From positions 63,748 through 127,747 of the forward strand of contig JARHVB010000082.1 of NCBI GenBank assembly GCA_029222685.1: a stretch of 64,000 nucleotides of DNA, given 5' to 3'. A program made the position numbers and the translations under genes. Positions 14,023 to 64,000 of this stretch are shown here, piece by piece. Below the pieces are notes generated by a model. It saw only the letters and a list, made by a program, of their open reading frames with translations, was not told the origin of the DNA and made no database searches. How positions within the stretch are numbered: the stretch's first letter is position 1; each line of letters opens with the position of its first letter. This stretch comes from Terripilifer ovatus. GTDB taxonomy: Bacteria > Pseudomonadota > Alphaproteobacteria > Rhizobiales > Beijerinckiaceae.

Positions 14023-14034
14023 ACGGTAACGGTA
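14023..14034. promoter_or_regulatory. Tandem ACGGTA repeat upstream of hyuA, possible TetR operator
   Basis: Two direct ACGGTA hexamers lie just before the strong ribosome site GGGAGGA of the hydantoinase gene. With flanks, the sequence CGGTAACGGTATCG is an imperfect dyad (10 of 14 positions symmetric). The site is the only repeat in the TetR-hyuA spacer. Role as an operator is inference. Confidence 0.35.
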
Positions 14035-14055
14035 TCGGGAATTAAGGGAGGAACG

Positions 14056-46299: not shown

Positions 46300-46311
46300 A
46301 GGGATGCTCCT

Positions 46312-47350: not shown

Positions 47351-47433
47351 GCTCGATCGTGGCATGACAGAATGTCCTCGAGCAGAGTTGTTGCCGGGAA
47401 GCGCCATAGCGTGGATTGAACGGGATCGGATCT

Positions 47434-48339: not shown

Positions 48340-48674
48340 CTCATGTCGATGATCTTCTCGCGACGATCTCCACTTTGCAGCGCGGCGATATCGAGACCTG
48401 GATCCGCGAAGGACTGGTCGCGCCGCAACAGGAAGCGGGAACGCTGCATTTCACGGAAATGGAATGTGCGCGCGTCCGCCTCATCTGTACGCTGCACTAC
48501 GAACTCGAGATCGATGCCGAGACGTTGCCGATGGTGCTGTCGCTGGTCGACCAGCTTTACGACACGCGAAAGCGTCTCTTGTCCCTGACCGCCGCCGTTG
48601 CGGCGCAGGATCAGGACGTCCAGGCGGCGATCCTCGCCGCACTGGAGCGAGACGACCCTGCGCGGCAATCGTGA
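48336..48674 (+). CDS. cbpM: Chaperone modulator CbpM-like protein
   Basis: 112 residues from ATG 48336, overlapping the cbpA stop by four bases. MerR-like/CbpM layout: LQRGDIETWIREGLVAPQQE, TEMECARVRLICTLHYELEI, then a helical C-terminus with LSLVDQLYDTRKRLLSLTAA. CbpM binds the J domain of CbpA and inhibits it. The conserved gene pair makes the assignment secure despite low similarity expected for this family. Confidence 0.85.
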   Translation: MTHVDDLLATISTLQRGDIETWIREGLVAPQQEAGTLHFTEMECARVRLICTLHYELEIDAETLPMVLSLVDQLYDTRKRLLSLTAAVAAQDQDVQAAILAALERDDPARQS

Positions 48675-50011: not shown

Positions 50012-50087
50012 AGCTTGTTGCCTCTCAGCGTGCCGTAAACTTGTGCGGGCGAAGGGATTGACGTTCTACAGTCATCTTATATCCTAG

Positions 50088-50122
50088 ACAGGTAACTGTA
50101 TTTTGACCAGACAGATTGCTGT
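50088..50122. promoter_or_regulatory. Double operator: two AGACAG-N4-CTGTATT dyads, 23 bases apart
   Basis: ACAG-GTAA-CTGT at 50088-50099 and ACAG-ATTG-CTGT at 50111-50122. Both are preceded by AG and followed by ATT, so they are direct repeats of a dyad, spaced 23 bases (two helix turns). The spacer lies between the MmgE/PrpD gene and the GntR gene. This is the organisation expected for a HutC-type repressor acting on both promoters. Confidence 0.7.
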
Positions 50123-50164
50123 ATTGCAGAGCTGCTGACAGCGGCCCTTCTCAGGGGAAACTGG

Positions 50165-51058
50165 GTGGACGCATTTGTTGAGCCATTCAAGGCGCGCAGG
50201 GTCTATCTCCTGCTCAGAAGCCGGCTGACGAGCGGACAGTTCGTGCCCGGCATGCGGCTGTCGAGCGAGCCGGCACTGGCGGCCGAGCACGGCGTCTCCC
50301 GTGTCACCGTGCGCCGCGCCCTCGACCAGTTGTGCAGCGAGGGACTGATCGAACGCAGACCCGGCGCCGGCACTTTCGTTCGCGATGCGGGATTAGGGCG
50401 GCCCGTGGTGGTCGACCTCACCAATGTCTTCTCTCACCTGCTCGAGATGGGCCGCGAGACGAGCGTTCGCCTGCTGTCGTTCGGCTATGTCACGCCGCCA
50501 AGCATGATTGCGACCGCGCTGCGGTTGAAGCCGGGCGAACGTACGCAGCGCTCGGTGCGCGCACGCAGCGCCGATGGCGCACCATTTTCCTATCTCATCA
50601 CCCATGTGCCCGAGCGCATCGGCCTGACCTATTCGGAAGCGGATCTTGGCACGCGGCCGCTGCTTCGCCTGCTCGAAAACTCCGGCGTCATCGCCGCCCG
50701 CGCCAGCCAGATGATTACGGCGACCCTGGCGGAGCCGGAGGTCGCCGAGGCGTTGCAGGTGGAGATCGGATCGCCGCTGCTGTCTTTGACGCGCATCGTC
50801 TATGAAGAAACCGGCAGCGGCGTCGAGCATCTGCAGGCGCTTTACAGGCCAGATCGCTACTCTTTCCATATGGATCTCGAACGCAACGGCGCGACGGGCC
50901 ACAAGAACTGGAGCCCGGTGGTGCGGCCGAGCGCAGAGACGCCGCCGCCCCCGGCTCGGCAAGCCAAGCCTCACGCCAACAAGACGCCTCTCGCCCGAAA
51001 TCCTCTCGTCAAGAAGAAGCCTCCGGCTTCAACCGCCCGCTCAAAAGGAAAAGGCTGA
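50165..51058 (+). CDS. GntR family transcriptional regulator, HutC subfamily (UTRA domain)
   Basis: 297 residues from GTG 50165. N-terminal GntR winged helix: VYLLLRSRLTSGQFVPGMRL, SEPALAAEHGVSRVTVRRAL, CSEGLIERRPGAGTFVRD (residues 12-78). UTRA effector domain from about 95 (PFSYLITHVPERIGLTY, ASQMITATLAEPEVAEALQV). The last 45 residues (PPPPARQAKPHANKTPLARN) are Pro/Lys/Ala-rich, low-complexity and unusual for HutC proteins; they may aid DNA binding. Heads the hydantoinase-importer operon, 46 bases before hyuB. Effector unknown; the UTRA domain of HutC binds urocanate, another ring compound. Confidence 0.88.
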   Translation: MDAFVEPFKARRVYLLLRSRLTSGQFVPGMRLSSEPALAAEHGVSRVTVRRALDQLCSEGLIERRPGAGTFVRDAGLGRPVVVDLTNVFSHLLEMGRETSVRLLSFGYVTPPSMIATALRLKPGERTQRSVRARSADGAPFSYLITHVPERIGLTYSEADLGTRPLLRLLENSGVIAARASQMITATLAEPEVAEALQVEIGSPLLSLTRIVYEETGSGVEHLQALYRPDRYSFHMDLERNGATGHKNWSPVVRPSAETPPPPARQAKPHANKTPLARNPLVKKKPPASTARSKGKG

Positions 51059-51104
51059 TGCATATGACGCTGAAGCAGCGATGGCCGAAAACCAGGGAAG
51101 CCGC

Positions 51105-52787
51105 GTGAGCACCATTGATCCGGTCACGCTCGCGGTTCTCAAGGGCCGCCTGGAACAGATCGTCGACGAGATGGACGCCACCTTGTTCCGTTCGGCGTTC
51201 AACCCGATCATCGCCGAGGCACGCGATGCCTGCCATGGCCTCTATCATCCTGAAACCGGCGCGACCCTGGTTCAAGGCACGCAAGGCCTGCCGATCTTCG
51301 TCGGCGCCATGGCCTTCGCCGCAAAAGCCGTCATCGACAAGGTGGCGCGCGACGGCGGCCTCGAGCCGGGCGATACATTCCTGTTCAACGATCCTTACGA
51401 AGGCGGGACGCATCTCAGCGACATGCGCCTGGTGCGGCCGGTCTACCGCAATGGCGCCCTGTTCTGCTGGATCGCCTCGGTCGGCCATTGGCTCGACGTC
51501 GGCGGCAATGTGGCCGGCGGCTACAATCCACGCGCCACCGAAAGCCATCAGGAAGGCGTGCGCATCCCGATCGTGAAGCTTTTCAGTGCCGGCAAGGTGA
51601 GGCAGGACGTCGTCGACATTCTCGCCGCCAACACGCGCTCGTGGTCGTCCAACTGGGGCGATCTCAACGGGCAGTTGAACGCGCTCGACCTCGGCGAGCG
51701 CCGCATTCACGCCCTGCTCGACGAATACGGCGACACAACCATACAAACGGTATTTACAATCTTCGCCGATCGCGCCGAAGCGCTGATGCGCGCCTCGATC
51801 GCGACATTGCCGGACGGCACCTATTCGTTCGAAGACATCCTCGACAATGACGGCATCACCGACAAGCCGCTGACGGTGGCGCTCGATCTCACCGTCAACG
51901 GCGATGCGATGACGCTCGATTTCTCGCGCTCGTCGCCGCCGGCCGCGGGGCCCATCAACATCGCCTATTCCACCGCCGTCGCCGCCTGCTATGTCGCGCT
52001 CAAGCACGCCTTCACCGATGTGCCGGCCAATGCGGGATGCCTGCGGCCCATCACCTTCGTCATCCCCGAGACCACCTTGCTGGCCGTAAAGGCGCCGAAG
52101 CCCGTGGCCGGCTATACGGAGACGATCCTGCGTCTCATCGGCGTGGTGTTCGGGGCGCTGGCCAAGGCGGATCCTTCGCGCGCGACGGCCGCGCCGTTTG
52201 GAACGATCAACGCCTTGTCATTGTCGGGCACACGCAACGACGGTTCGCCCTGGCTGATGTTCTCGTTCTTCGGCGGCGGCCTCGGCGGCAATCCCGAAAG
52301 CGATGGATTGAGCCACGCCAACAATCCGATTTCCACCGCCACCATTCCGCCAATCGAGATTCTCGAGGCGGCCTATCCGGTGCTGTTCACCCAATGGGCA
52401 TTGCGGCCGGACTCCGCCGGGGCAGGCGCACATCGCGGCGGGCTGGGCGCAATCTATGAAGTGGAACCGCTGGTCGACGCCAGCGTGTCGCTGCTCGGCG
52501 AGCGCGGCAAGGCGCCGCCCTTCGGGGTCAGCGGCGGACAGCCGGGCGCACTCAACCGCTTCATCTGGCAGAGCGACGAAGGCGACAAGTCGCCGCCGCT
52601 CGTCTCGAAGATCACCGACGTGAAGCTGCGCGCCGGACAGCGGGTGCGCCTGGAGACGCCCGGTGGCGGCGGCTGGGGCAACCCGAGCGATCGCGATCCA
52701 TCCGCGACCGCGCGTGATGTGCGGCTCGGCTATGTCAGCGCCGCTGCGGCCGGAAAGGATGAAGCACAAGAGGGAGCTGCCGCATGA
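51105..52787 (+). CDS. hyuB: Hydantoinase/oxoprolinase subunit B, second copy
   Basis: 560 residues from GTG 51105 (STIDPVTLAVLKGRLEQIVD, the standard HyuB N-terminus, with AGGGA upstream); ATG 51081 adds eight. Canonical HyuB motifs: EMDATLFRSAFNPIIAEARD, FNDPYEGGTHLSDMRLVRPV, GHWLDVGG, and the C-terminal RLETPGGGGWGNPSDRDP. Forms the ATP-dependent ring-opening enzyme with HyuA, whose start overlaps its stop by four bases. Less than half similar to the first copy; the FNDPYxGGTH motif, absent there, is intact. Confidence 0.92.
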   Translation: MSTIDPVTLAVLKGRLEQIVDEMDATLFRSAFNPIIAEARDACHGLYHPETGATLVQGTQGLPIFVGAMAFAAKAVIDKVARDGGLEPGDTFLFNDPYEGGTHLSDMRLVRPVYRNGALFCWIASVGHWLDVGGNVAGGYNPRATESHQEGVRIPIVKLFSAGKVRQDVVDILAANTRSWSSNWGDLNGQLNALDLGERRIHALLDEYGDTTIQTVFTIFADRAEALMRASIATLPDGTYSFEDILDNDGITDKPLTVALDLTVNGDAMTLDFSRSSPPAAGPINIAYSTAVAACYVALKHAFTDVPANAGCLRPITFVIPETTLLAVKAPKPVAGYTETILRLIGVVFGALAKADPSRATAAPFGTINALSLSGTRNDGSPWLMFSFFGGGLGGNPESDGLSHANNPISTATIPPIEILEAAYPVLFTQWALRPDSAGAGAHRGGLGAIYEVEPLVDASVSLLGERGKAPPFGVSGGQPGALNRFIWQSDEGDKSPPLVSKITDVKLRAGQRVRLETPGGGGWGNPSDRDPSATARDVRLGYVSAAAAGKDEAQEGAAA

Positions 52788-54850
52788 GCGCCTCCCTTGG
52801 ATCACTCGTCGGCGTCGATGTCGGCGGCACCTTCACCGATCTTTTCTTCTATGACGAGGACAAGCGGCGCTTCTCGACCGCGAAAGTGCCTTCGCAGCGC
52901 GGCGATGAAGCGGTCGGATTTCTGCAGGGCCTCAAGAGCCTGGGGCCGGTGGCATCGCTGACCTCCATCGTGCACGGCACCACGGTCGGCACCAATGCGC
53001 TGCTCGAGCGCAAGGGCGCGCGCATCGGCCTCATCACGACCAAGGGCTTTCGCGACGTGCTCGAAATGCGCCGCCGCGACCGCCGCCAGACCTGGGGACT
53101 GTGGGGCGACTTCATCCCCGTCGTCGACCGCGATCTGCGGCTCGAAGTCGATGAGCGGACGCTCGCCGACGGAACGATCCGGACCGAAGTCGACATCGAC
53201 GCCGTGAAGCGCGCCGCAGCGGCACTGCGCGCCAACGGCGCGCAGGCGCTCGCCGTGGTCTTCATCAATGCCTATGCCAATCCCGCCAACGAGCTGAAGG
53301 CGCTCGCTGCCGTCGCCGAGGTCTGGCCCAACGAGAACGTCGCCTGTTCGGCGCAGATCCTGCCGGAGATCCGTGAGTTCGAGCGGACATCGACGACAGC
53401 GTTGAATGCCTATCTCCAGCCTGTCGTCGGCGACTATCTCGCCAAGCTCGACCTGGCCTTGCGCTCGGAAGACTTCGGCGGCCGCTTTCATATCGTGCAA
53501 TCGAACGGCGGCGTGATGTCGACGGCGATGGCGCGCCGGCTGCCGGTGCGCACTGCGCTTTCCGGCCCTGCCGCAGGCGTGATCGCCGCGGCGGAAATCG
53601 CACGCGTTGCAGGCTTCGCCAATGTCATCACCGGCGATCTGGGCGGCACCTCGTTCGACGTGTCGTTGGTCGTCGAGGGCAAGACCTCGCTTGCCGCGCA
53701 GACGACGATCGATTTCGGTCTCGTCGTGCGCACGCCGATGATCGAGATCACCACCATCGGTGCCGGCGGCGGCTCGATCGCTCATGTCGATGTCGGCGGC
53801 CTGCTGCAGGTCGGGCCGGAAAGCGCCGGCTCGCGGCCGGGTCCGGTGTGTTACGCGCAGGGCAATACGCGGCCGACATTGACCGATGCCAACGTCGTCC
53901 TCGGCCGCATCAATGCGGCCAACCCGATCGGCGGCCAGCTCAGCCGGCTTGACGTCGAAGCCGCCAAGGCCGCCATCGACAAGCACGTTGCGCAGCCGCT
54001 CGGCCTCGACACGATGAGCGCGGCGGAGGCGATCGTCCGCATTGCCGACAGCAAGATGGCCGGCGCGATCCGCCTGGTGTCGATCGAACGCGGCCATGAT
54101 CCGGCCAAGTTCGCCCTGGTGCCGTTCGGCGGCGGCGGCGCGCTGCATGTCGGCGCGCTGATCAAGGATCTCGGCCTGAAGGGCGCGCTAATTCCGCGCT
54201 ACCCTGGCGTCACCTCGGCGCTCGGCTGCGTCATTGCCGACATCCGCCACGATCAGGTGCGCACGGTGAACCTGCCCCTGCACGGGCTCGACGCCGCGAG
54301 CCTCGACCGGCGGATGATCGAGGATGCCGATGCGGCGCGGGCGGTGGTCGAGAAAGCCGGCCTTACCGTCGAGCGCATCGACATCGTCTTCGAGCTCGAC
54401 ATGCACTATGTGGGGCAGACGCATACAGTCGCCGTTCCGCTGCCTGTCGTCGTCTCCGGCGGAACGACGGATATCAGCGAAGACATCATCCGGCGCGCCT
54501 TCGAGGCGGCCTATCAGACATCGTTCAGCCGCCTGCTGCCGGGCATTCCGGCGAAGATCGTCAATCTGCGGGTGGCGGCGATCGGCCGGCGGCCGCGCTT
54601 CGATCTCAAGGCGCTGGCGCCCGCCGAGGGCGCATCCATGGAAAAGGCCAGGCGCGGAACCCGTCCGGTCTGGTTCGACGGCGCCTGGCACGATGCGGCC
54701 ATCTATGCGCGGCTCGACCTCCCGGTCGGAGCCGAGATCCATGGCCCGGCGGTTCTTGAACAGCCGGACGCCACGACCGTCGTCGATCCAGAGCTTGTCG
54801 CAAGGGTCGACGCATTCGGCAATGTCATCGTGGAAAGGCCACAACGATGA
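52784..54850 (+). CDS. hyuA: Hydantoinase/oxoprolinase subunit A, second copy
   Basis: 688 residues. Phosphate loop DVGGTFTD at 12-19, VHGTTVGTNALLERKGARIG, REFERTSTTALNAYLQPVVG, second nucleotide motif GDLGGTSFDVSLVVEGK, GGGGALHVGALIKDLGLKG near the C-terminus. The actin-like ATPase subunit for hydantoin/5-oxoproline-type hydrolysis. Gene order B-A, coupled to both hyuB and the nitronate monooxygenase gene by ATGA overlaps. N-methylhydantoinase, hydantoin racemase-linked hydantoinase and oxoprolinase are all possible. Confidence 0.92.
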   Translation: MSASLGSLVGVDVGGTFTDLFFYDEDKRRFSTAKVPSQRGDEAVGFLQGLKSLGPVASLTSIVHGTTVGTNALLERKGARIGLITTKGFRDVLEMRRRDRRQTWGLWGDFIPVVDRDLRLEVDERTLADGTIRTEVDIDAVKRAAAALRANGAQALAVVFINAYANPANELKALAAVAEVWPNENVACSAQILPEIREFERTSTTALNAYLQPVVGDYLAKLDLALRSEDFGGRFHIVQSNGGVMSTAMARRLPVRTALSGPAAGVIAAAEIARVAGFANVITGDLGGTSFDVSLVVEGKTSLAAQTTIDFGLVVRTPMIEITTIGAGGGSIAHVDVGGLLQVGPESAGSRPGPVCYAQGNTRPTLTDANVVLGRINAANPIGGQLSRLDVEAAKAAIDKHVAQPLGLDTMSAAEAIVRIADSKMAGAIRLVSIERGHDPAKFALVPFGGGGALHVGALIKDLGLKGALIPRYPGVTSALGCVIADIRHDQVRTVNLPLHGLDAASLDRRMIEDADAARAVVEKAGLTVERIDIVFELDMHYVGQTHTVAVPLPVVVSGGTTDISEDIIRRAFEAAYQTSFSRLLPGIPAKIVNLRVAAIGRRPRFDLKALAPAEGASMEKARRGTRPVWFDGAWHDAAIYARLDLPVGAEIHGPAVLEQPDATTVVDPELVARVDAFGNVIVERPQR

Positions 54851-55935
54851 GCGAGGGTCTGTTCGATACGAGAGTCAGCGCCCGCCTCGGAATCGAGCTT
54901 CCGATCCTCGGCGCGCCGATGGGCGGTTGTGCCGGCCCCGATCTCGTCGCGGCAGTGTCCAACGCGGGCGGACTCGGCATCCTGGGCCATGCCACGCTCG
55001 AGCCCGACGAAGTGCTGCGACAGATCCGGCGGACCAAGCAGTTGACTGCCAGGCCGTTCGGAATCGGTCTGCTGTTCCCCGCGAATGACGGCAAGCTTGT
55101 CGCTGCGCACGCACCGGCGCATCCGCTCCCTCGGTTTCTCGAACAGTTCATCGACACGCAGACGCAGGTCAGCGAACCGCCCAAGCGCTATGATGCGCAG
55201 ACCGCCGAGCAGCGCCTCGAGATAGCCATTGCCGAGGGCGTCGCCGTCCTCACATTGGGGCTGGGCGCGCCCGCACATGTGATCGCCCGCGCCAAGGCCG
55301 CGGGCATGACCGTCATCGTTCTCGTCGGCAGCCGCCATGCGGCGCTCGACGTGGAAGCGCGCGGCGCCGACATCCTCGTCGCGCAGGGCCATGAGGCTGG
55401 CGGCCACACCGGCCGGACGTCGACCCTGGTCCTGGTGCCCCAGGTGGTCGATGCGGTCAAAATCCCCGTGGTCGCCGCCGGCGGCATCGTCGACGGGCGC
55501 AGCCTGGCGGCAGCGATGATGCTGGGCGCCGAAGGCGTCCTGATCGGCACGCGCCTGCTGGCGACGCCCGAAGCCGACACCGCGCCATCGCACAAGCAGA
55601 AGATCGTCGACATGCAGGACGACGAGACGCTGGTGTCGCGCTGCTATACCGGCAAGCCCTCGCGCGTGATCCGCAATGCCTTCACCGACGCCTGGAAGGG
55701 CCATGACAGCGAGTTGCGGCCGATGCCCGAGCAATGGGACATGGTGGCGCCGGTCGTCGTGCCGGCCAAAGCCAAGGGGTCGATCGCGGTCGGCAACTGG
55801 CCGACCGGACAGGGCGCCGCCCTCATCCATGATCTAAGTCCGGCAGGCGAGGTCGTGCAGAAGATGGCGGCGGAGGCCGAAGCGCTCGTGCACCGCTTCG
55901 GCCGTCCACGTGCGAGCGGAGGGCCTGGATGCTGA
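54847..55935 (+). CDS. Nitronate monooxygenase (2-nitropropane dioxygenase family)
   Basis: 362 residues. FMN TIM barrel: IELPILGAPMGGCAGPDLVA, AAVSNAGGLGILG, FGIGLLFPAN, the hallmark AQGHEAGGHTGRT (about 180-192) with the catalytic His, and VAAGGIVDGRSLAAAMMLGA. Oxidises alkyl nitronates; many members act on other substrates or as reductases. In a hydantoinase operon it may detoxify or process a nitro or nitronate intermediate. Starts in the hyuA stop; ends overlapping the permease gene by seven bases. Confidence 0.88.
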   Translation: MSEGLFDTRVSARLGIELPILGAPMGGCAGPDLVAAVSNAGGLGILGHATLEPDEVLRQIRRTKQLTARPFGIGLLFPANDGKLVAAHAPAHPLPRFLEQFIDTQTQVSEPPKRYDAQTAEQRLEIAIAEGVAVLTLGLGAPAHVIARAKAAGMTVIVLVGSRHAALDVEARGADILVAQGHEAGGHTGRTSTLVLVPQVVDAVKIPVVAAGGIVDGRSLAAAMMLGAEGVLIGTRLLATPEADTAPSHKQKIVDMQDDETLVSRCYTGKPSRVIRNAFTDAWKGHDSELRPMPEQWDMVAPVVVPAKAKGSIAVGNWPTGQGAALIHDLSPAGEVVQKMAAEAEALVHRFGRPRASGGPGC

Positions 55936-56846
55936 GGTTCCTCGCGCGCAGATTGACCCAGTCCGTCCTGACGGTCTTCGGCGTCCTCACCGCGGCATTC
56001 TTTCTCGTCCGCCTTGCGGGCGACCCTTCGGTTCTGCTGCTGCCGGTCGAAGCAACCGACAAGGACATCGCGCTGCTGCGCAGCGAACTCGGCCTCGATC
56101 AATCCCTCCCTGTCCAATACGGAAAATTCCTCCTCAATGTCCTGCAGGGCGACCTCGGGCTGTCCCTGCGGCAGCGGGTCCCGGCGCTCGATCTGGTTCT
56201 CGAGCGGCTGCCGGCGACGCTCGAACTGGCGCTGACGGCTTTCGTGCTCGGCCTCGTGCTGGCCTTCGTCGTCGGCCTTGTCATGCGGCTGACGCCAAGT
56301 CCGCGGTTGCGCGCCGCCATCATGTGGCTGGCCTTCATCCGGCAGGCGATCCCGGTTTTCTTTTTCGGCCTGCTGATGATCCTGCTTTTCTCGGTGACCC
56401 TGGGCTGGCTGCCTTCGCTCGGACGCGGCACGATCTACCACCTCATCCTGCCGGCGGTGACGCTTGCGACCTATGAACTGGCGCTCTACCTGCGCCTGTT
56501 CAATTCCGCCCTCGGCGAGCAGCAGGGCCAGGATTACGTTCGCACCGCCTATGCCAAAGGACAGACCCGCACCAGGATCATCCTGCGGCACATGCTGCCG
56601 AATGCGTTGCTGCCGCTGGTGACGATCGCCGGCATCAATCTGGGCATGCTGCTCGGCAGCGCCGTGGTCACGGAAACGGTGTTCAGTTGGCCCGGAGTCG
56701 GCCGCCTCATCGTTCAGTCCGTCAGCCAGCGCGATTATCCCGTCGTCATCGCCGGCGTGCTGATGATGTCGCTGGTGTTCGTGCTGATCAATCTGACCGT
56801 CGACCTGCTCTATGCCGTGCTCGATCCGCGCGTGAGGCTGTCATGA
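55929..56846 (+). CDS. Peptide/nickel-type ABC permease (DppB family)
   Basis: 305 residues, six membrane helices. DppB signatures: RFLARRLTQSVLTVFGVLTA at the N-terminus, LLRSELGLDQSLPVQYGKFL, the EAA loop DYVRTAYAKGQTRTRIILRH and late GSAVVTETVFSWPGVGRLIV. Forms the importer channel with the DppC-like protein encoded next, whose start overlaps its stop. Confidence 0.93.
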   Translation: MLRFLARRLTQSVLTVFGVLTAAFFLVRLAGDPSVLLLPVEATDKDIALLRSELGLDQSLPVQYGKFLLNVLQGDLGLSLRQRVPALDLVLERLPATLELALTAFVLGLVLAFVVGLVMRLTPSPRLRAAIMWLAFIRQAIPVFFFGLLMILLFSVTLGWLPSLGRGTIYHLILPAVTLATYELALYLRLFNSALGEQQGQDYVRTAYAKGQTRTRIILRHMLPNALLPLVTIAGINLGMLLGSAVVTETVFSWPGVGRLIVQSVSQRDYPVVIAGVLMMSLVFVLINLTVDLLYAVLDPRVRLS

Positions 56847-57757
56847 GCATTGCGACTGCCGACAAGACCGCCCCTGCGACCCATCGCTTTGCCTGGCTGC
56901 GCAGCGGCCTGCATATCATCGGGCAGTCCTATTCGATGATGTTTGCGGCCGCGCTGCTCGCCGCCGTGCTGTTGCTGATCGTCCTCGTTCCGCTCTTGCC
57001 AGGTTACGATCCCTATACGCAGAACCTGGCCGTGAGCCTTGCCGCGCCGTTCGAAAACATCGACGGGCGGACCTATATCCTCGGCACCGACACCCTGGGA
57101 CGTGACTTGCTGAGCCGCGCGGCGCTGGCCGGGCGGGTGTCTCTCCTCATCGGCCTCTCGGCCGTGATCATCAGCCTCGTGGTCGGCGTGTTTCTCGGAC
57201 TGGTGGCGGGCTTCTTCCGCGGCTTCGTCGAAAGCGTGGTGATGGGCCTGGCTGACCTGCAGCTCTCGATCCCGCGCGTGCTGCTGCTCATCGCGGTTGC
57301 CGCCATTGTCGGCCCGAGCGTCGTCAATCTCACGGTGCTGCTGGGCCTGACCAGCTGGGTGGTCTATGGCCGGGTCGCGCGCGCCATGGCCTTGTCGCTG
57401 CGCGAGCGCGAATTCGTCCTGTCGGCCGTCACCCAGGGCGCATCGGCGACGTGGAACATCCGCAAGCACCTGCTGCCGAACGTTCTGCCGCAGATGCTGA
57501 TCGTCGGCTCGTTCGAACTTGGGCAGATCATCGTCTTCGAAGCCTCGCTCAGCTATCTCGGTCTCGGCATCCAGCCGCCGCTGCCGAGCTGGGGCATGAT
57601 GATCAGCGAAGGCCAGCAGTATCTCGAGATCGACCCCTGGATCGCGCTGCTGCCGGGCATCGCCATCTTCATGCTGGTGACGGGAGTCCAGATTCTCAGC
57701 CAGGCGTTCACCTCCGAAGGCCAGTTCGACCTGGCATCCCCGCAGAAAGGGACGTGA
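56843..57757 (+). CDS. Peptide/nickel-type ABC permease (DppC family)
   Basis: 304 residues from ATG 56843 (ATGA overlap); in-frame reading back to 56687 runs inside the preceding gene. DppC signatures: YILGTDTLGRDLLSRAALAG, GLVAGFFRGFVESVVMGLAD, EAA loop EFVLSAVTQGASATWNIRKH and EASLSYLGLGIQPPLPSWGM. Second channel subunit. Two bases separate its stop from the start of the ATPase gene. Confidence 0.93.
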   Translation: MSIATADKTAPATHRFAWLRSGLHIIGQSYSMMFAAALLAAVLLLIVLVPLLPGYDPYTQNLAVSLAAPFENIDGRTYILGTDTLGRDLLSRAALAGRVSLLIGLSAVIISLVVGVFLGLVAGFFRGFVESVVMGLADLQLSIPRVLLLIAVAAIVGPSVVNLTVLLGLTSWVVYGRVARAMALSLREREFVLSAVTQGASATWNIRKHLLPNVLPQMLIVGSFELGQIIVFEASLSYLGLGIQPPLPSWGMMISEGQQYLEIDPWIALLPGIAIFMLVTGVQILSQAFTSEGQFDLASPQKGT

Positions 57758-57759
57758 GG

Positions 57760-58806
57760 ATGACGGAAACCACCGCACCCATCCTGTCAGTCCGCAATCT
57801 CGTCGTCGAAGCCGTAAATGCCAGCGGCCCGGTGCGCATCGTCGATGGCGTCTCCTTCGATGTCCACGCCGGCGAGGTCTTCGGCATCGTCGGGGAATCC
57901 GGATCGGGCAAGAGCATCACCATGCTGGCGGTGATGGGTCTCTTAAGCGGCCGCACCCGCCTTGCCGGCGGCGAGGTGAAACTTCGGGGCAAGAGCCTGA
58001 CCGACATGTCGCGCGAGGAGTTGCGCCGGGTCCGCGGCCGCAACGTCTCGATGATCTTCCAGGATCCGATGACGTCGTTGAACCCGGTTCTGCGCATCGG
58101 CAACCAGATCGCGGAAATTCTCGAAATCCATCAGCCGGAGCTGTCGCGCGCGGCGGTCCGTGACCGTGTCATCGAACTGTTGAGCCTCGTCGGCGTGCCC
58201 AGTCCGGAGCGGCGCTACCGGCAATATCCGCATGAATTTTCGGGCGGCATGCGGCAGCGCGCCATGATCGCCATGGCGATCGCCAACAATCCCGATATCC
58301 TGATTGCTGACGAGCCGACCACAGCGCTCGACGTCACCATCCAGGCGCAGGTGATGGAACTGCTGCTCGAAGTGCGCACGCGCAACCGGGCAGCGATGAT
58401 CCTCATCACCCATGATCTGGGCCTCGTCGCGGAAACTGTCGATCGCGTTGCGGTCATGTATGGCGGAAGGTTGATGGAAGAGGGTCCGGTCGAGGAGATT
58501 TTCAGCCGCCCGGCCCATCCCTACACGGTCGGGCTGATGGCCAGCCGGCCGCGGCTCGATGCGGCGCCGGCGTTTCTCTATTCCATCCCAGGCCAGCCGC
58601 CGAGCCTCGCCAACCGTCCGTCCGGATGCGTCTTCAACCCGCGCTGCGCCCTGCAGAACGGGCGCGAGATCTGCACGACGAAATTGCCGTTGCTGGATTC
58701 GGTCAGTACCGCGCACAGTGCCGCCTGTCATTTCTCGCGGGAGATCGACGGCTGGATCGGCGAGGTCGTGACCGCCGATCGTAACAGCATGCGGGAAGCG
58801 CCATGA
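57760..58806 (+). CDS. Peptide/nickel-type ABC ATPase (DppD family)
   Basis: 348 residues from ATG 57760. Walker A GESGSGKS near 43-50, Q-loop [16 protein letters not shown], signature FSGGMRQR, Walker [14 protein letters not shown] and switch His [16 protein letters not shown]. The C-terminal oligopeptide-ABC domain with four cysteines ([26 protein letters not shown]) is present and normally binds an Fe-S cluster. Partner of the DppF-like protein encoded next (ATGA overlap). Confidence 0.93.
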
Positions 58807-59876
58807 CGCAGGCGTCGCCAGACAAAGCATTTCTGCAGGTGGATGATCTCCACACCCATTTTCGCGTCCGCGGCGCCGGCTGGAGAAGCGAGACATTGCG
58901 TGCCGTCAACGGCGTCTCGTTCTCGATCGCGCAAGGCGAAACGCTCGGCCTCGTCGGCGAGTCCGGATGCGGCAAGTCGACCCTCGGGCGCACCCTTCTT
59001 CGCCTCAACGAGCCGACCCGGGGCGCGGTCTATTTCAAAGGCCAGAATCTCGTCGGCATGGGCCGTGGCAAGATGCGGGCGGTAAGACGCTCGATCCAGG
59101 TCGTCTTCCAGGATCCCTATGCGTCGCTTGATCCGAAGATGACGGTGGGCGAGATCATCGCCGAGCCGCTGCACATCAACAACTGCTACCGGCCGGCCCG
59201 CGTCGCGGAAATGATCGACTGCGTCGGCTTGCAGCAGGATGCCGCCAACAGACTGCCGACGGAGTTTTCCGGCGGCCAGCGCCAGCGCATCGCGATTGCG
59301 CGGGCGCTGGCGCTCGGACCGGAGCTGCTGATCCTCGACGAGGCGGTCTCGGCCCTCGACGTGTCGATCCAGGCGCAGGTCATCAATCTGCTGAAGCAGC
59401 TGCAGAAGGAGATGGGCCTGACCTACCTGTTCATTTCGCATGACCTGTCAGTGGTGCGATACATCTCCGACAAGGTGGCGGTGATGTATCTCGGCAAGAT
59501 CGTCGAGATGGGCGCCGGCGAGCAGATTTTCAGCGCGCCGGAACATCCTTATACGCAATCGCTGCTTTCGGCGGTTCCGATTGCCGATCCGTCGTACCGG
59601 AAACAACGCCAGCGCATCGTCCTGAAAGGCGATCTGCCGAACCCGCTCGATCCGCCGTCAGGCTGCGCCTTCCGGACCCGTTGTTTCAAGGCCCGGCCGA
59701 AATGCGCCGAGCAGGAACCGCAACTCGAGACGCGGGCCACCGCAGGCCACCTCAGCGCAGATCATGTCAGCGCTTGCCATTTTGCCGAACCGGTGGTGCC
59801 GGATTTCATGAAGATCAACACCAACACCCAGACCGCTGCGCCGGCCCTGCGCAGCGGTGCCATTCTGAAAGCCTGA
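58803..59876 (+). CDS. Peptide/nickel-type ABC ATPase (DppF family)
   Basis: 357 residues. Walker [13 protein letters not shown] near 54-65, Q-loop [20 protein letters not shown], signature [15 protein letters not shown], Walker [14 protein letters not shown], switch His [16 protein letters not shown]-terminal cysteine-containing domain ([24 protein letters not shown]). Last of the transport ATPases; the binding protein gene follows after 37 bases, with its own ribosome site. The Walker B segment has Ala-Val (DEAVSALDV) instead of the usual DEPTSALD, a common DppF variant. Confidence 0.93.
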
Positions 59877-59913
59877 AGCTGGAACAATCAGCCAACCATA
59901 AACGACAGGGGAC

Positions 59914-61428
59914 ATGATGATGAGCGTACCGAAATCGATTTCGACCATGGCCGCCGCGTTTTGCCTGCTCGCTGGGGCAGCGATGGCAACGCCTGCCGCC
60001 GCACAGTCCGGGCAATTGGTGGTGGCTCCGAGCTCGGACGTGCTGACGCTCGATCCCAGCCTCGATACGTCGCCGATCAGCCTGAACGTCTTCAAGAACA
60101 TCTACGACCAGCTCACCGATATTGCGGCTGACGGATCGGTCGCTCCGTTGCTGGCCGCCCGCTGGGAGGCGGGCGAAAACGCGACGGCTTGGACGTTCAC
60201 GATCAAGACCAACGCGAAGTTCCACGATGGCGCACCGGTTACCGTCGAGGATGTGATCTGGTCCTATCAGAAAATCATCGACGATCCGAAATCGCCGGTG
60301 CGCGCTTATCTCACCAAAGTAAGATCGATCGAGAAAGTGTCCGCCGACAAGCTTCGTTTCACCCTGTCGGCGCCGTTTGCAGCCTTCGACCGTCAGGTCT
60401 CGCTGATCTCGATCCTGCCGCGCAAGGTTTATGAGGAACGCGGTGCGGGCTTTGCGCAGAATCCGGTCGGGTCCGGCCCGTATAAAGTGGTCCGCTGGAT
60501 CAAGGACGATAGAGTCGAACTGGAAGCTTTCGCGGGCTATCATGGTGGAACGCCGAAGATCAAGACGGTGATCTTCCGCCCCGTGCCATCGGAATCCGCA
60601 CGTGCGGCGGCGTTATCGTCCGGCGAAGTGGATATCGTGCCGCTGTTGCCGCCGGCCCTCGTCGACCGGATGAGTTCGCGCAAGGGCGTGAGGGTCGAGA
60701 AGGTCCCCAGCAACCGCGTCATCTACCTGGGGTTCGATGTCAACAATCCCGTCCTGAGCAACCTCAAGCTGCGTCAGGCGATCGACATGTCGATCGACCG
60801 CAACACGATCACCACGAGGTTGCTGCGCGGGCTTGGCCATCCGATCGGACAGGTGGTGGCGCCGGTGACCTTCGGCTACGATCCGGCGATCAAGCCGACG
60901 GCCTACAATGCCGATGAGGCAAAGAAACTGCTGAAAGAGTCTGGCTACAACGGCGAGCCGATCGTCTTTCAATATCCGAACAACCGCTACGCGTTCGGCG
61001 AGGAAGTCGCCCAGGCCGTCGTCGGCTATATGAAAGCGGTCGGCATCAATGTCGAGATGCAGGGCATGGACTACAGCGCCTTCTTCCCGCTGTGGACGAG
61101 CAAGAAGCTCAACGGCATGCATATGTTCGCCTTCGGCCCTTCGATCATGGATGCCGACCTGCCGCTCGGCAGTCTCTATGAGACCGGGCCGGCGCGCGCC
61201 TACTGGTCGAACGCCAAGGTCAATGAACTCATCGCACAGCAACGCGCCGAGACCGATCCGGCCAAGCGTCGCGCGCAGATCGGCCAGATCTGGCAACTCA
61301 GCAAGGACAACGTGCCCTACGTGATGCTCTATAACGAGGTGCAGGCCTACGGCATCAAGGACAATGTGAAATGGACGGCGCGTCCCGACGAGCGCCTGCT
61401 TTTCAAGGATGCACAACTTGCCAAATGA
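59914..61428 (+). CDS. Peptide-type ABC extracellular solute-binding protein (family 5)
   Basis: 504 residues. Signal peptide (MAAAFCLLAGAAMATPAAA before QSG). Family 5 fold: APSSDVLTLDPSLDTSPISL, TFTIKTNAKFHDGAPVTVED, GSGPYKVVRWIKDDRVELEA, LKLRQAIDMSIDRNTI. Binds oligopeptides, opines, nickel chelates or small amides in the periplasm. Being inside a hydantoinase/CoA-ligase operon, the ligand is probably the pathway substrate. GGGG ribosome site; three ATG codons in tandem at the start. Confidence 0.92.
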   Translation: MMMSVPKSISTMAAAFCLLAGAAMATPAAAQSGQLVVAPSSDVLTLDPSLDTSPISLNVFKNIYDQLTDIAADGSVAPLLAARWEAGENATAWTFTIKTNAKFHDGAPVTVEDVIWSYQKIIDDPKSPVRAYLTKVRSIEKVSADKLRFTLSAPFAAFDRQVSLISILPRKVYEERGAGFAQNPVGSGPYKVVRWIKDDRVELEAFAGYHGGTPKIKTVIFRPVPSESARAAALSSGEVDIVPLLPPALVDRMSSRKGVRVEKVPSNRVIYLGFDVNNPVLSNLKLRQAIDMSIDRNTITTRLLRGLGHPIGQVVAPVTFGYDPAIKPTAYNADEAKKLLKESGYNGEPIVFQYPNNRYAFGEEVAQAVVGYMKAVGINVEMQGMDYSAFFPLWTSKKLNGMHMFAFGPSIMDADLPLGSLYETGPARAYWSNAKVNELIAQQRAETDPAKRRAQIGQIWQLSKDNVPYVMLYNEVQAYGIKDNVKWTARPDERLLFKDAQLAK

Positions 61429-61435
61429 GAACCCG

Positions 61436-62062
61436 ATGATCGACCTCGATCCGGCCACGACCGCCCTCATCGTCATCGACATGCAGAACGATTTCTGCCA
61501 TGCGGATGGATATTACGCCCGGGCGGGCCGGGACATCTCGCAACTGGCGGCAGCGACGGCTCCCGTGGCCAGGCTGCTCGAACGGGCGCGCGCTGCGGGC
61601 CTGAGCGTCGTGTTTACACGCCTCGTTCACGATGAGGCGCGCGGCGCGATGGAGGAGCGCCATACGATCAGGCCGCTTCGCTGGACCGCGCAGGGTAAGC
61701 GCCTGACACCGGGCACCTGGGGCGCCGACGTTGTCGACGCGCTGCGCCCGACGGCCGGCGAGCTGATCATCGACAAGCATGGTTACTCGGCTTTCGACGA
61801 CACGACGCTTGAGCAGGACCTGCATCGGCGCGGGGTCAAGACCGTGCTGCTGGCTGGCGTCGTCACCTATGCCTGCGTGCTCGCCACCGGCTTTGCCGCC
61901 TTCGATCGCGGCTTCGACGTGCTGCTGGTGAAGGATGCGGCCGGAAGCTGGATCGACAGGCTGGGCGCCAGCACGTCCGAGGTCGTCGATCTTCTGCTCG
62001 GCCGGTCCGTAGCCGGCGACGAGCTCAACTTTTCATCTACACAAATCATTGTTACAGAGTGA
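61436..62062 (+). CDS. Cysteine hydrolase of the isochorismatase/N-carbamoylsarcosine amidohydrolase family
   Basis: 208 residues from ATG 61436. Catalytic triad in place: D15 (IVIDMQNDF), K114 (IIDKHGYSAF) and C147 (GVVTYACVLATG), with the cis-peptide GVVTY. Thus a genuine amidase-type cysteine hydrolase rather than isochorismate lyase-like. N-carbamoylsarcosine amidohydrolase, which acts right after N-methylhydantoinase, belongs to this family, making it a plausible partner of HyuA/HyuB. Other options are maleamate, ureidoacrylate or nicotinamide amidohydrolases. Seven bases after the binding protein stop. Confidence 0.88.
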   Translation: MIDLDPATTALIVIDMQNDFCHADGYYARAGRDISQLAAATAPVARLLERARAAGLSVVFTRLVHDEARGAMEERHTIRPLRWTAQGKRLTPGTWGADVVDALRPTAGELIIDKHGYSAFDDTTLEQDLHRRGVKTVLLAGVVTYACVLATGFAAFDRGFDVLLVKDAAGSWIDRLGASTSEVVDLLLGRSVAGDELNFSSTQIIVTE

Positions 62063-62072
62063 GGAACTCCTG

Positions 62073-62960
62073 ATGTCCTATGCATTCAAAGCCATCGACG
62101 CGGTCTGCAACTACGAATTCGACGATTCGGAGACGGTGCGGCCGGAATGGTCGAAGACCTTCATCACCCAGAAGATCGGCGCGGAGCCTGGCAGGATCGG
62201 CAGCTTTACGCCCGAAAGCTTCATCGAGAAGATGGACCGCGCCGGCATCGAGCATGTGTTCCTGATCGCCGTGAAGGCCGGCAGCACGCAGCAGAAGATC
62301 CACCGGCGCATCAGCTACGAGACCGTCGCCGCCATGGTGAAGAAACATCCGACACGGTTCAGCGGCCTGGCCGGCGTCGACCCGACGGAAGGCATGAAGG
62401 GCCTGGCGCAGCTCGAATACGCCATCAAGGACCTGGGCTTTGTCGGCGCGCATCTCTATCCGCACTGGTTCGAGATGGCGCCCGATCACGCGCGCTACTA
62501 TCCGATCTACGCCAAATGCGCCGAACTCGGCGTGCCGATCCAGATGCAGGTCGGCCACTGCCTGCGCTATTCCGAAGAGCGGCCGCTGCCGAGCGTCGGC
62601 CGCCCGATCACGCTCGACACCATCGCCTGTCATTTCCCTGAATTGAAGCTGGTCGGCATTCATATCGGCTGGCCGTGGGTGGAAGAGATGATCTCCGTCG
62701 CCTACAAGCATCCCAACGTCTATATCGGCTCGGATGCCTATGCGCCGTCCCATTGGTCGAAGGAGTTCGTGCACTTCATCGATTCATGGGGCGCCAAGAA
62801 GGTGATCTTCGGCACTGACTTCCCGGTGATCGACCCGGAGCGGGCGCGCCAGGACATCGAAAAACTCGAGATCCGCGAGGCCTCCAGGCGCCGCTTTCTG
62901 CGCGACAATGTCATCGAGCTCTATAATCTGAAGCTTCCCCTGTCCGGAGCGACATCATGA
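62073..62960 (+). CDS. Amidohydrolase-2 family protein lacking the HxH motif
   Basis: 295 residues from ATG 62073 with GAGGA upstream; ATG 62049 adds eight residues and overlaps the previous gene. TIM-barrel amidohydrolase: DLGFVGAHLYPHWFEMAPDH, GVPIQMQVGHCLRYSEERPL, LKLVGIHIGWPWVEEMISVA, VIFGTDFPVIDPERARQDIE. At the N-terminus, where IDxHxH ligands occur in metal-bound members, the sequence is IDAVCNYEF, so two metal His are missing while the later His and Asp remain. The metal site must differ or be partial. Coupled to the CoA-ligase gene by an ATGA overlap. Confidence 0.8.
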   Translation: MSYAFKAIDAVCNYEFDDSETVRPEWSKTFITQKIGAEPGRIGSFTPESFIEKMDRAGIEHVFLIAVKAGSTQQKIHRRISYETVAAMVKKHPTRFSGLAGVDPTEGMKGLAQLEYAIKDLGFVGAHLYPHWFEMAPDHARYYPIYAKCAELGVPIQMQVGHCLRYSEERPLPSVGRPITLDTIACHFPELKLVGIHIGWPWVEEMISVAYKHPNVYIGSDAYAPSHWSKEFVHFIDSWGAKKVIFGTDFPVIDPERARQDIEKLEIREASRRRFLRDNVIELYNLKLPLSGATS

Positions 62961-64000
62961 TGCCGGAAACGACACTCTCGGACATCACCTTGCCGGATGT
63001 CCTGCGCCAGCCGCAGGACAAGCTGCGGGCGCTGCAGGATCGCCTGCTGCGCCAGACCGTGGAGCTTTGCTATCGCGGTCATCCGTTTTATCAGAAACTG
63101 ATGAAGCGCGAGGGCCTGGAGCCGCGCCACATCCAGACCTGCGACGACCTGGTGCGCCTGCCGCTGTCGACGAAGAAGGATTTTCTGGCCGATCCCGACG
63201 CATTCCGACTGCAGGGCGACGACCTGCCGATCGAGGCGCAGACGCTGTGGAAGATCATCTATACGACCGGCACGACGAGCGGACGCCCGGCCCCGATCTA
63301 TGTGCCGTCCGCCGATCATTATGCCTATCTGTTCGCATCGGCGCGCCGGCGCGAGCTCGTCGATATCCGCGATACCGACACCTTGGTGAACCTGTTTCCG
63401 CTGACCCCGTTTCCGATGGGCGCCTATGCGCGGGCGCCCGACGAGATCGCGGCCGTCGGCGCCGCCATCGCCTTCGCCCATACGGGCCGGCCCGAAGGCC
63501 CGTTTCCCGTGCACAGGAGCCTTGACGATGCGGTCCGCATGATCGAGCGTCACCACGCCACGATCCTTTGGGGCGTGTCCGGCTTCGTCCGCCGGGTGCT
63601 GTTGCGGGCGCAGGAGCTGAATGCGGACTTCAGCGCGGTGCGCATGGTCATGGTCACCGGCGAGGCCTCTTCCGGCGCGATGCTGGACGACATGCGCCGG
63701 CGCATGCGCGAACTCGGTTGCGCCGACACCAGGATCGTCAACCGCTACGGCTCGACCGAGCAGGGCGGCAGCATGGTCGAGTGCACGCCGGGCAGCGGTT
63801 TCCACAGCCTTGCGCCGGACCAGATCTTCCATGAGGTGGTCGACGGCGAGACGGGCCGGCGCCTCAACGACGGCGAGACCGGCATGCTCGCCTTCACCCA
63901 TGTCTATCGCCGCGGCACCGTCTTCCTGCGCTATCTCGTCGGCGATATCGTCGCTTTGACGAACGCGACCTGCCCGCATTGCGGCCGCACCTGCCCGCGC
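62957..64000 (+). CDS. Phenylacetate-CoA ligase-like AMP-dependent synthetase, 3' end outside the window
   Basis: 348 codons visible, starting with ATG-ATG in the stop of the previous gene. PaaK-like: CYRGHPFYQKLMKREGLEPR, DLVRLPLSTKKDFLADPDAF, the ATP/AMP P-loop YTTGTTSGRPAP at 102-113, VVNRYGSTEQGGSMVECTPG-like motif (NRYGSTEQGG) and CPHCGRTCPR just before the edge. Activates an aryl or acyl carboxylate to its CoA thioester. Closes the visible part of the operon and implies that the product released upstream is a carboxylic acid degraded as a CoA ester. About 80-100 residues are missing at the C-terminus. Confidence 0.88.
   Translation, partial: MMPETTLSDITLPDVLRQPQDKLRALQDRLLRQTVELCYRGHPFYQKLMKREGLEPRHIQTCDDLVRLPLSTKKDFLADPDAFRLQGDDLPIEAQTLWKIIYTTGTTSGRPAPIYVPSADHYAYLFASARRRELVDIRDTDTLVNLFPLTPFPMGAYARAPDEIAAVGAAIAFAHTGRPEGPFPVHRSLDDAVRMIERHHATILWGVSGFVRRVLLRAQELNADFSAVRMVMVTGEASSGAMLDDMRRRMRELGCADTRIVNRYGSTEQGGSMVECTPGSGFHSLAPDQIFHEVVDGETGRRLNDGETGMLAFTHVYRRGTVFLRYLVGDIVALTNATCPHCGRTCPR

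Follow-up and report, generated by a model that had tools for sequence, protein, structure and literature searches.

What does a bacterium take up and degrade with an operon that combines a hydantoinase-type enzyme, a peptide-type importer, a cysteine hydrolase and a CoA ligase? Such an operon closes the 64,000-nucleotide stretch of DNA analysed here (the window). Its enzyme types are known; we found no description of their combination.

Operon layout and boundaries

The GntR gene and the 11 co-directional genes that follow it form one genuine operon. All genes named in an earlier note on this DNA were recovered on the plus strand from open reading frames and Pfam matches, with HyuB ahead of HyuA as that note had read them. 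The tight packing it described past the GntR gene also holds, with successive intergenic gaps of 22, -4, -4, -7, -4, 2, -4, 37, 7, 10 and -4 bases (hence a range of -7 to 37), calculated with codon-model starts for HyuB, DppC and DppD. The features are as follows.

48680..50011, minus strand: MmgE/PrpD-family gene (Pfam MmgE_PrpD N and C domains), proposed hydratase/dehydratase step
50058..50085, plus strand: sigma-70-like promoter TTGACG-16-TATCCT, a predicted match and a lead only
50086..50125, no strand: two palindromes ACAG-N4-CTGT (50088-50099 and 50111-50122), proposed GntR operator pair
50165..51058, plus strand: GntR/UTRA regulator (Pfam GntR, UTRA)
51081..52787, plus strand: HyuB, ATP-dependent cyclic-amide hydrolase subunit (Pfam Hydantoinase_B, PF02538, 564.7 bits; start 51081 by codon model)
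52784..54850, plus strand: HyuA, ATP-dependent cyclic-amide hydrolase subunit (Pfam Hydant_A_N, Hydantoinase_A, Hydant_A_C; tree)
54847..55935, plus strand: nitronate monooxygenase/FabK-type FMN enzyme (Pfam NMO, 248 bits)
55929..56846, plus strand: DppB-type permease (Pfam BPD_transp_1)
56843..57757, plus strand: DppC-type permease (Pfam BPD_transp_1; start by codon model)
57760..58806, plus strand: DppD-type ATPase (Pfam ABC_tran, oligo_HPY; start by codon model)
58803..59876, plus strand: DppF-type ATPase (Pfam ABC_tran, oligo_HPY)
59914..61428, plus strand: binding protein (Pfam SBP_bac_5, 293 bits)
61436..62062, plus strand: isochorismatase-family cysteine hydrolase, an amidohydrolase (Pfam Isochorismatase; D, K and C residues; predicted fold)
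62073..62960, plus strand: Amidohydro_2/ACMSD-fold protein without the N-terminal HxH (Pfam Amidohydro_2; predicted fold)
62957..64000, continuing to 64348 outside the window, plus strand: PaaK-like adenylate-forming CoA ligase (Pfam AMP-binding; complete 463-aa ORF, L003:105-1496)

The operon end, which the earlier note had wanted sequenced beyond position 64000, lies 348 bases past the window edge: the ligase is the final gene, with 463 aa and a stop at L003:1496 (equivalent to window position 64348). No terminator-like site was found 3' of the ligase, and the next plus-strand ORF begins 124 bases on. At the other end, the MmgE/PrpD gene and the GntR gene diverge and are 153 bases apart if the former starts at 50011. 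The sigma-70-like match is unique within 49900-64000, but is only a lead because shuffled sequences yield 2.1 such matches on average in that interval. The window contains no PrpB-like or LeuCD gene.

The HyuA clade and the cysteine hydrolase

HyuA and HyuB gave full-length domain matches above the Pfam cut-offs, which places both in the ATP-dependent hydantoinase/oxoprolinase superfamily. The best NCBIfam model is caprolactamase, with 516 bits for CapA, roughly half the equivalog cut-off of 1000, and 312 bits for CapB, roughly a third. In a HyuA tree, the window protein is nested in a clade of 26 rows (the window and 25 others) with support of 100/100; outside the clade stand 14 own-genome paralog rows and 3 intermediate rows. 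Of the four rows of 44-48% identity, three were taken into the tree and L150, lost in gene calling, was left out.

An isochorismatase-family gene lies immediately 3' of HyuA at 23 of the 25 clade loci, and the neighbours include a PrpB-like lyase at 19, a LeuC-like protein at 16, a LeuD-like protein at 17 and a related GntR at 10. None of these five gene types occurs in any of the 13 neighbourhoods of the 14 own-genome HyuA paralogs, a control drawn from one genome only. The coupling of HyuBA with an isochorismatase-family amidohydrolase, noticed earlier in this operon, is thus a conserved pairing. In the window itself, six genes separate HyuA from the isochorismatase gene, whose product is about 30-38% identical to the clade isochorismatases and belongs to another subfamily; the linkage of HyuBA to this particular cysteine-hydrolase unit is seen in one operon. 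Genes of the HyuAB type abound under labels that tell little, with 15 HyuA matches in this genome alone. The neighbourhood rule (isochorismatase, diacid hydratase and PrpB-like lyase) sets one clade apart from the other 14 copies and turns a vague label into a testable substrate class.

At clade locus L164, the LeuD-like protein passes the LeuD/DmdB model (175 bits against a cut-off of 109) and the LeuC-like protein passes the homoaconitate hydratase family model (470 against 386). PDB matches of the PrpB-like lyase include 2-methylisocitrate lyase at up to 201.5 bits and 2,3-dimethylmalate lyase at 161 bits; the protein scores under the methylisocitrate lyase cut-off (293 of 354), and its family also includes phosphonate and oxaloacetate enzymes. 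Judged by family, the LeuCD-like and PrpB-like types act on diacids that carry no amino group. The clade gene set fits a route from a cyclic imide through a half-amide to a diacid, followed by hydration and cleavage. A succinate-glutarate-type CoA transferase is close-knit with these genes at 4 of the 25 loci, and glutaryl-CoA dehydrogenase is also present at 3 of those 4 (one genus); the complete set is found at no single locus. The annotated family representatives, which cover 158 of the 394 genes called at the clade loci, include no sarcosine enzyme.

In the 208-aa cysteine hydrolase, the D-K-C triad that had been described as intact is invariant: D15, K114 and C147, which we take to be the catalytic triad of the isochorismatase superfamily, are conserved in 32 of 32 aligned rows including its own (rows picked from 120 homologs among the matches listed). 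The subfamily numbers 378 proteins at E <= 1e-20. Its structural model (pLDDT 85.6) is closest in fold to BiuH, TrtA and RutB, i.e., biuret, triuret and ureidoacrylate hydrolases, with identities of 30-34% to the biuret and triuret hydrolases and 25-27% to RutB; a chain named nicF ranks only 50th among the best 50 fold matches shown. Comparison with PDB sequences likewise gave 84-97 bits to triuret/biuret hydrolases (best 97), versus 37 and 36 bits for the N-carbamoylsarcosine amidohydrolases 1nba and 26st and 66 bits for the related amidase 3eef. The scores for the NCBIfam equivalogs are 116 of 370 (BiuH) and 95 of 378 (RutB). The former label 'N-carbamoyl-type' is apt insofar as ureido hydrolases are the closest relatives of solved structure, but N-carbamoylsarcosine amidohydrolase is not the closest of them. 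The nearest folds of the model would also suit a ureide substrate.

The second conserved unit and the regulator

The binding protein, isochorismatase, Amidohydro_2 protein and ligase recur as a unit, and HyuBA is absent at all four other loci examined (L118, L121, L034 and L119), so that the operon is, by gene content, a mosaic of a HyuBA part and a second conserved unit. At L119, the unit is joined by an FMN enzyme 68% identical to that of the window, stands beside an MmgE/PrpD gene 53% identical to the window's, and is accompanied by an Asp/Glu-racemase-family gene. L118 and L121 carry CE4/PuuE-type genes (a solved relative of the L121 gene being the allantoinase PuuE) and L034 a PrpB-like gene; in L118 the CE4 gene, and in L034 the PrpB-like gene, lies about 8 kb from the isochorismatase gene on the opposite strand. 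CE4 genes are not specific to these loci, as they also occur at 1 of the 13 paralog loci (41%) and 1 of the 25 clade loci (L180, 30%). A sibling locus in the same genome, L202, has CE4, PrpB-like, LeuC, LeuD and Amdase-family genes within 11 kb.

With at most 7 or 8 candidates scored per genome, matches to the cysteine hydrolase at E <= 1e-55 or 1e-50 were found in 1 other genome of 396 in a sample of the order, 1 of 384 in a sample of the class and 0 of 397 in a sample of the phylum. Within their own families, of 39 and 8 genomes, G514 and G239 were the only genomes to give matches. A scan of genome contigs was dominated by a generic motif, and a single one of its 80 loci, L034, was accepted as a member (51%; next 36%-40%). 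Orthologs in close relatives were rejected, the best isochorismatase among 100 other genomes being just 44% identical, as was a plasmid-borne unit, the ligase having no match at 1e-60 in 72,556 plasmid records.

For the binding protein, the best solved relative (178 bits) is named only as an ABC transporter substrate-binding protein. The Amidohydro_2 protein has invariant D8 and N12 where the N-terminal HxH would be expected, and its fold is nearest to 3irs, then to decarboxylases and the LigJ hydratase. The ligase scores 88.3 bits against a solved phenylacetate-CoA ligase, and its window part (347 of 463 aa) reaches 69 of the 646 bits set for the PaaK equivalog TIGR02155. The aryl group proposed earlier derived from the PaaK name alone and finds no footing in these scores.

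The operon GntR is 37-56% identical to the GntR proteins at 10 of the 25 clade loci, and 56% identical to the GntR of operon L201 in its own genome. Exact copies of ACAG-N4-CTGT occur just twice across the 64 kb, both 5' of the GntR gene, and the promoter region of the L201 operon contains the same palindrome, at position 12902 of L201; two copies in one promoter and one in the other were reproduced by 1 of 20000 shuffles. Because both operons have this palindrome and their regulators are 56% identical, they probably share one regulon, and we infer from the sequences that GntR binds the palindrome. Other products of the L201 operon are an arylmalonate-decarboxylase-family protein and a PrpB-like lyase. 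We rejected the palindrome as a mark of the whole clade: besides the window, exact copies occur at only 3 of 31 scanned loci (L201, L183 within a gene and L185 beside a gene edge), and copies with one mismatch do not stand out near the GntR genes of the clade. Nor do exactly three sites genome-wide amount to enrichment, since the pattern was derived from those very sites; a backward control gave 3 and 4.

Candidate pathway, rival readings and known systems

We tentatively favour, at a likelihood just short of even, the reading that this operon is controlled by GntR and serves to degrade an imported cyclic amide, most likely a cyclic imide of the substituted succinimide or maleimide type; its reactions, their order and the substrate we infer. 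The Dpp-type importer and its binding protein would take up the cyclic amide, HyuBA would open the ring at the expense of ATP to give a half-amide, and the isochorismatase-type cysteine hydrolase would release ammonia from it, leaving a diacid. The MmgE/PrpD protein may then hydrate or dehydrate the diacid, and the FMN enzyme and the ACMSD-like protein may also take part in its conversion, after which the ligase would activate the acid as a CoA ester for central metabolism. The L201 operon, probably co-regulated, would supply its lyase and decarboxylase-family protein. Cyclic imides were already among the candidates of the earlier note, and this part of its substrate reading is supported, whereas its creatinine-type analogy and aryl group are not. 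Among the matches listed, searched by title and abstract start, the open-licence literature gave no description of HyuAB with an isochorismatase or with imides. Nor did we find an imide-active HyuBA: in the portions of the papers considered, relatives act on lactams, hydantoins and 5-oxoproline (PMC8453981, PMC11033972), and imides appear in the study of oxoprolinase OplAB on lactams as substrates of other hydrolases only (PMC11033972).

If the imide reading is true, the clade enzymes would open imides with ATP, and maleimide-type products of chlorophyll and heme breakdown might be degraded in this way. A bolder version seems to us rather unlikely: the HyuBA-isochorismatase-LeuCD-PrpB set would constitute a bacterial pathway, so far undescribed, that degrades substituted maleimides, e.g., from tetrapyrrole breakdown. 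Ring opening with ATP, amide hydrolysis, hydration and C-C cleavage would then yield pyruvate and a side-chain acid (glutarate, were hematinic acid the substrate), and the operon in the window would be a variant form in which the CoA ligase activates the acid.

Among the competing explanations, a ureide route has a modest chance of being correct: HyuBA would open a ring of the hydantoin or dihydropyrimidine type, the cysteine hydrolase would decarbamoylate the resulting N-carbamoyl compound and the ligase would activate the acid. This would agree with the proximity of the hydrolase to BiuH, TrtA and RutB, by NCBIfam (BiuH, RutB), PDB sequence and fold, and with the allantoinase relative of the L121 CE4 gene. 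However, the LeuCD-like and PrpB-like enzymes handle nitrogen-free diacids, and no aminotransferase, amino-acid oxidase or ammonia lyase was found by Pfam/NCBIfam annotation among the operon genes or among the annotated clade representatives (236 of the 394 genes being outside annotated families). That HyuBA was inserted into a transporter-hydrolase-ligase operon and acts on a different compound we consider improbable. The second unit does stand without HyuBA at 4 of 4 other loci, with MmgE/PrpD and the FMN enzyme in L119, and the window's FMN enzyme, Amidohydro_2 protein, ligase, binding protein and DppB have no match at 1e-8 among the genes called at the 25 clade loci; yet the genes, some of them overlapping, form a single array that resembles a transcription unit, and its GntR is of the regulator group found at 10 of those loci, so that regulator and HyuBA agree.

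We consider very unlikely an aryl-lactam route like that of anaerobic indoleacetate degradation, in which HyuBA would open an oxindole and the PaaK-like ligase would activate the product. The indoleacetate route uses a PaaK-like ligase, and one is present here, but it scores far under the PaaK cut-offs; the operon genes include no molybdenum hydroxylase, and to our knowledge the indoleacetate route needs no cysteine hydrolase. Its enzyme IaaCE is a HyuAB relative (PMC8453981).

Compared with known systems, the favoured imide route shares with creatinine degradation a HyuAB-type enzyme and an isochorismatase-superfamily amidohydrolase. The analogy to N-methylhydantoinase and N-carbamoylsarcosine amidohydrolase is not supported, however, by the scores of the cysteine hydrolase (36-66 bits versus 84-97 to biuret/triuret hydrolases), by the clade neighbours, which include diacid enzymes, or by the other operon partners. 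Dimethylmaleate hydratase and 2,3-dimethylmalate lyase, the end of nicotinate fermentation, resemble the LeuCD/DmdB-type hydratase and PEP-mutase-family lyase beside clade HyuBA, although neither HyuBA nor a cysteine hydrolase is known from nicotinate fermentation. The biuret/triuret hydrolases and RutB share the D-K-C residues and are nearest in fold and sequence to the cysteine hydrolase, which differs from them by its low identity and equivalog scores well short of the cut-offs. CapAB and other ATP-dependent lactamases belong to the same two-subunit superfamily and provide the best NCBIfam models, but the window pair scores far below them; lactam opening gives an amino acid (PMC11033972) and leaves no amide for hydrolysis. 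With HxnM/HxnN and the P. putida YZ-26 imidase, the favoured route has in common that a cyclic imide is opened and the amide then hydrolysed to an acid. In Aspergillus nicotinate catabolism, HxnM opens the imide before an amide hydrolase acts; HxnM shares 64.2% identity with a cyclic imide hydrolase of P. putida and resembles 3qbu, a chain that has PuuE as its closest characterised relative, and HxnN resembles FAAH1 (PMC9304392). In the window operon, ATP-dependent HyuBA and the cysteine hydrolase would perform the two steps instead.

Extent of the operon and its first conserved unit

The earlier note described a packed array running from a GntR regulator gene through an ATP-dependent cyclic-amide hydrolase (subunits HyuB and HyuA, together HyuBA) and an importer to a hydrolase and a ligase, and this array was borne out in gene content and in spacing, with intergenic distances of −7 to 37 bases. 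The coordinates are as follows:

G000 contig C81, 63748-127747: the window, in a genome of 7.2 Mb and 86 contigs
50165-51058: GntR, first gene of the array

The order 3' of GntR is HyuB, HyuA, nitronate monooxygenase/FabK-type FMN enzyme (NMO), DppB, DppC, DppD, DppF, SBP_bac_5 binding protein (SBP), isochorismatase-family cysteine hydrolase (ISO), Amidohydro_2 protein (AMD2) and PaaK-like ligase (LIG), and an MmgE/PrpD gene is divergent from GntR. LIG has 463 amino acids and its stop lies 348 bases past the window edge; because no terminator-like site was found 3' of LIG, the 3' end of the operon was set by the change of gene content. By eye, the open reading frames just upstream (43912-48674) resemble genes for a protease of the Lon type, a small heat-shock protein, a protein of the DnaJ/CbpA type and a small regulator.

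As judged from sequence comparison, the operon joins two conserved units, the first of which consists of MmgE, NMO, SBP, ISO, AMD2 and LIG. All six genes occur together in L119 (genome G514), at 53-80% identity to those of the window. L118 (genome G239) carries SBP, ISO, AMD2 and LIG, with DppBCDF about 8 kb off; L034 (Bradyrhizobium sp. LHD-71) carries SBP, ISO and LIG with divergent DppBCDF; and L121 carries ISO and AMD2, but an AMP-binding ligase of a different kind. HyuBA was found in 0 of these 4 loci. LIG of L034 is adjoined on the opposite strand (12276-15749) by a gene whose product combines POR, TPP_enzyme_C and DUF6537 domains, in the manner of indolepyruvate ferredoxin oxidoreductases. 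Unit one is rare in the genomes sampled (1/396 other genomes for the order and 1/384 for the class). We compared the homologs listed for ISO and for LIG, 120 in each case; since several contigs of the same size and organism, among them one of 24,452 bases from Variibacter and one of 246,457 bases from Micromonospora, recur among both sets of matches listed, the pair probably co-occurs in Alphaproteobacteria and Actinobacteria, through either inheritance or transfer. No close ISO relative was found in the listed same-genus genomes (1.9 to 6.4 Mb), all of which are smaller than the 7.2 Mb genome of the window; together, these two observations may point to acquisition.

The HyuBA clade and its neighbours

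The second unit, as delimited by gene neighbourhood, is HyuBA with an isochorismatase of its own. The class sample of 384 other genomes yielded HyuA at 57-67% identity in 25, and at 23 of the 25 loci HyuA is directly followed by an isochorismatase gene on the same strand (gaps of −49 to 14 bases). With neighbours annotated on family representatives, a PrpB-like lyase was present in 19/25 loci (immediately 5' of HyuB in 16). LeuC-like genes occurred in 16 loci and LeuD-like genes in 17, the latter encoding proteins of about 165 (13 loci) or about 205 amino acids (4 loci). Twelve loci carry a flavocytochrome c/TcuA-like FAD enzyme, 10 a GntR akin to that of the window (three of the 10 belonging to one genus), and 5 a distant MmgE/PrpD at 26-32% identity. 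As a control, we used the 13 neighbourhoods in which the remaining 14 HyuA copies of this genome lie: ISO, lyase, LeuC, LeuD and related GntR were found in 0/13, and matches were limited to a CE4 gene, an FAD match (27%) and an AMD2 match (26%), in one neighbourhood each. No ISO was found within 1.5 kb in four loci with HyuA at 44-48% identity. Maximum-likelihood analysis of 43 rows nests HyuA of the window in the 25-row clade (100/100 for 26 rows), with the own-genome paralogs and 3 intermediate rows outside it. In all, 15 HyuA matches occur in the genome, and the window itself contains a second HyuAB pair (14056-17873); the 14 copies besides that of the operon, at this and 13 other places, are without isochorismatase, lyase or hydratase neighbours.

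A palindrome shared with a second operon

The MmgE-GntR intergenic region (153 bases) contains ACAG-N4-CTGT twice, 23 bases apart, the sole two occurrences in the 64 kb. L201, on another contig of the same genome, encodes on one strand a binding protein, GntR, an arylmalonate-decarboxylase family (Amdase) protein, an ABC ATPase, a permease and a PrpB-like lyase (GntR and Amdase assigned by Pfam, the lyase by NCBIfam, the transporter parts by eye). Its GntR is 56% identical to that of the window, with an almost identical helix-turn-helix stretch, and the 164-base region 5' of the operon contains one ACAG-N4-CTGT. L201 was picked as the site of the best PrpB-like match, prior to any palindrome search. 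Any one palindrome occurring twice in the window region and once in the L201 region was obtained in 1 of 20,000 dinucleotide shuffles, and ACAG-N4-CTGT itself in the L201 region in 0.04%; a modest correction applies to these figures because the scan took in 31 loci in addition to the window. The genome-wide count is exactly three, which is not independent evidence. A co-regulated operon at another site in the genome probably supplies part of the pathway.

Candidate substrates and ring openers

On the most plausible reading, the operon is a catabolic mosaic that breaks down a cyclic amide taken up by the importer; we infer its reactions throughout, and an imide is more likely than a ureide as substrate. 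The hydratases and the 2-methylisocitrate/2,3-dimethylmalate lyases work on nitrogen-free diacid skeletons, and such enzymes following a cyclic-amide opener and an amidase would fit an imide. In the clade locus L164, the LeuD-like protein passes the LeuD/DmdB model and the LeuC-like one that of the homoaconitate hydratase family; the lyase, at 293 bits, falls below the methylisocitrate lyase cut-off of 354. Solved relatives of the lyase include 2-methylisocitrate lyase and 2,3-dimethylmalate lyase, and also phosphonate and oxaloacetate enzymes. The imide ring would be opened to a half-amide, amide hydrolysis would give a substituted maleate or succinate, and this diacid would be hydrated and then cleaved to pyruvate and an acid. 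Because MmgE/PrpD in L180 stands immediately before the lyase, in the slot held elsewhere by LeuC and LeuD, MmgE/PrpD of the window is a candidate hydratase.

What speaks chiefly against a plain half-amide is the predicted structure of ISO (pLDDT 85.6; residues D, K and C kept in 32/32 rows), the fold of which favours ureido substrates: the best matches are BiuH, TrtA and RutB, and among the best 50, a chain named N-carbamoylsarcosine amidase ranks 42 and one named nicF ranks 50. At about 32% identity, such fold matches do not settle the substrate. AMD2 (62073-62960) is one of a large family, in which 6105 of 6974 candidate proteins match at E ≤ 1e-30. D8 and N12 (IDAVCN in most) occur in 25/25 aligned rows at the position where amidohydrolases usually have the HxH metal motif; in these rows H126, H130, H196 and D248 are invariant and H161 nearly so. 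Its predicted structure (pLDDT 88.5) is nearest to an uncharacterised Bordetella protein, followed by dihydroxybenzoate decarboxylases, LigJ hydratase and ACMSD.

For the imide reading, the chemistry suggests that hematinic acid would yield pyruvate and glutarate by this route, which is an expectation and not a result; a maleimide substrate would be the bold reading. A succinate-glutarate CoA-transferase-like gene occurs in four clade loci (L175, L178, L179 and L187; 513 against a cut-off of 750 in L175), and a fifth, in L188, is only 35-38% alike. The three of these four loci that come from one genus also carry a glutaryl-CoA dehydrogenase (that of L178 scoring 621 bits to a solved enzyme), with no lyase found within the stretch covered, and L175 conversely carries a lyase without the dehydrogenase.

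Ring openers may be exchanged between loci. CE4 genes occur in 2 of the 4 HyuBA-less unit-one loci (L118 and L121), scoring 128 and 142 bits against the allantoinase PuuE model (cut-off 425); the L118 case is weak because some 8 kb separate the gene from ISO, which is on the opposite strand. CE4 is also found in 1/25 clade loci and beside 1/13 HyuA paralog loci of the window's genome (L213, C81:35106), the latter gene being 41% identical to the panel. The window's own genome contains, within 11 kb (L202, contig C45, 214000-232000), CE4/PuuE-like, PrpB-like, LeuC, LeuD and Amdase-family genes, interspersed with genes that by eye resemble those of a branched-chain-type ABC transporter; this locus may be a sister of the proposed pathway that uses a different ring opener. 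The CE4 protein of L121 is akin to PuuE of solved structure and, less closely, to 3qbu. HxnM, a cyclic imidase in fungal nicotinate catabolism, is reported to resemble 3qbu and to be 64.2% identical to a cyclic imide hydrolase of P. putida (PMC9304392).
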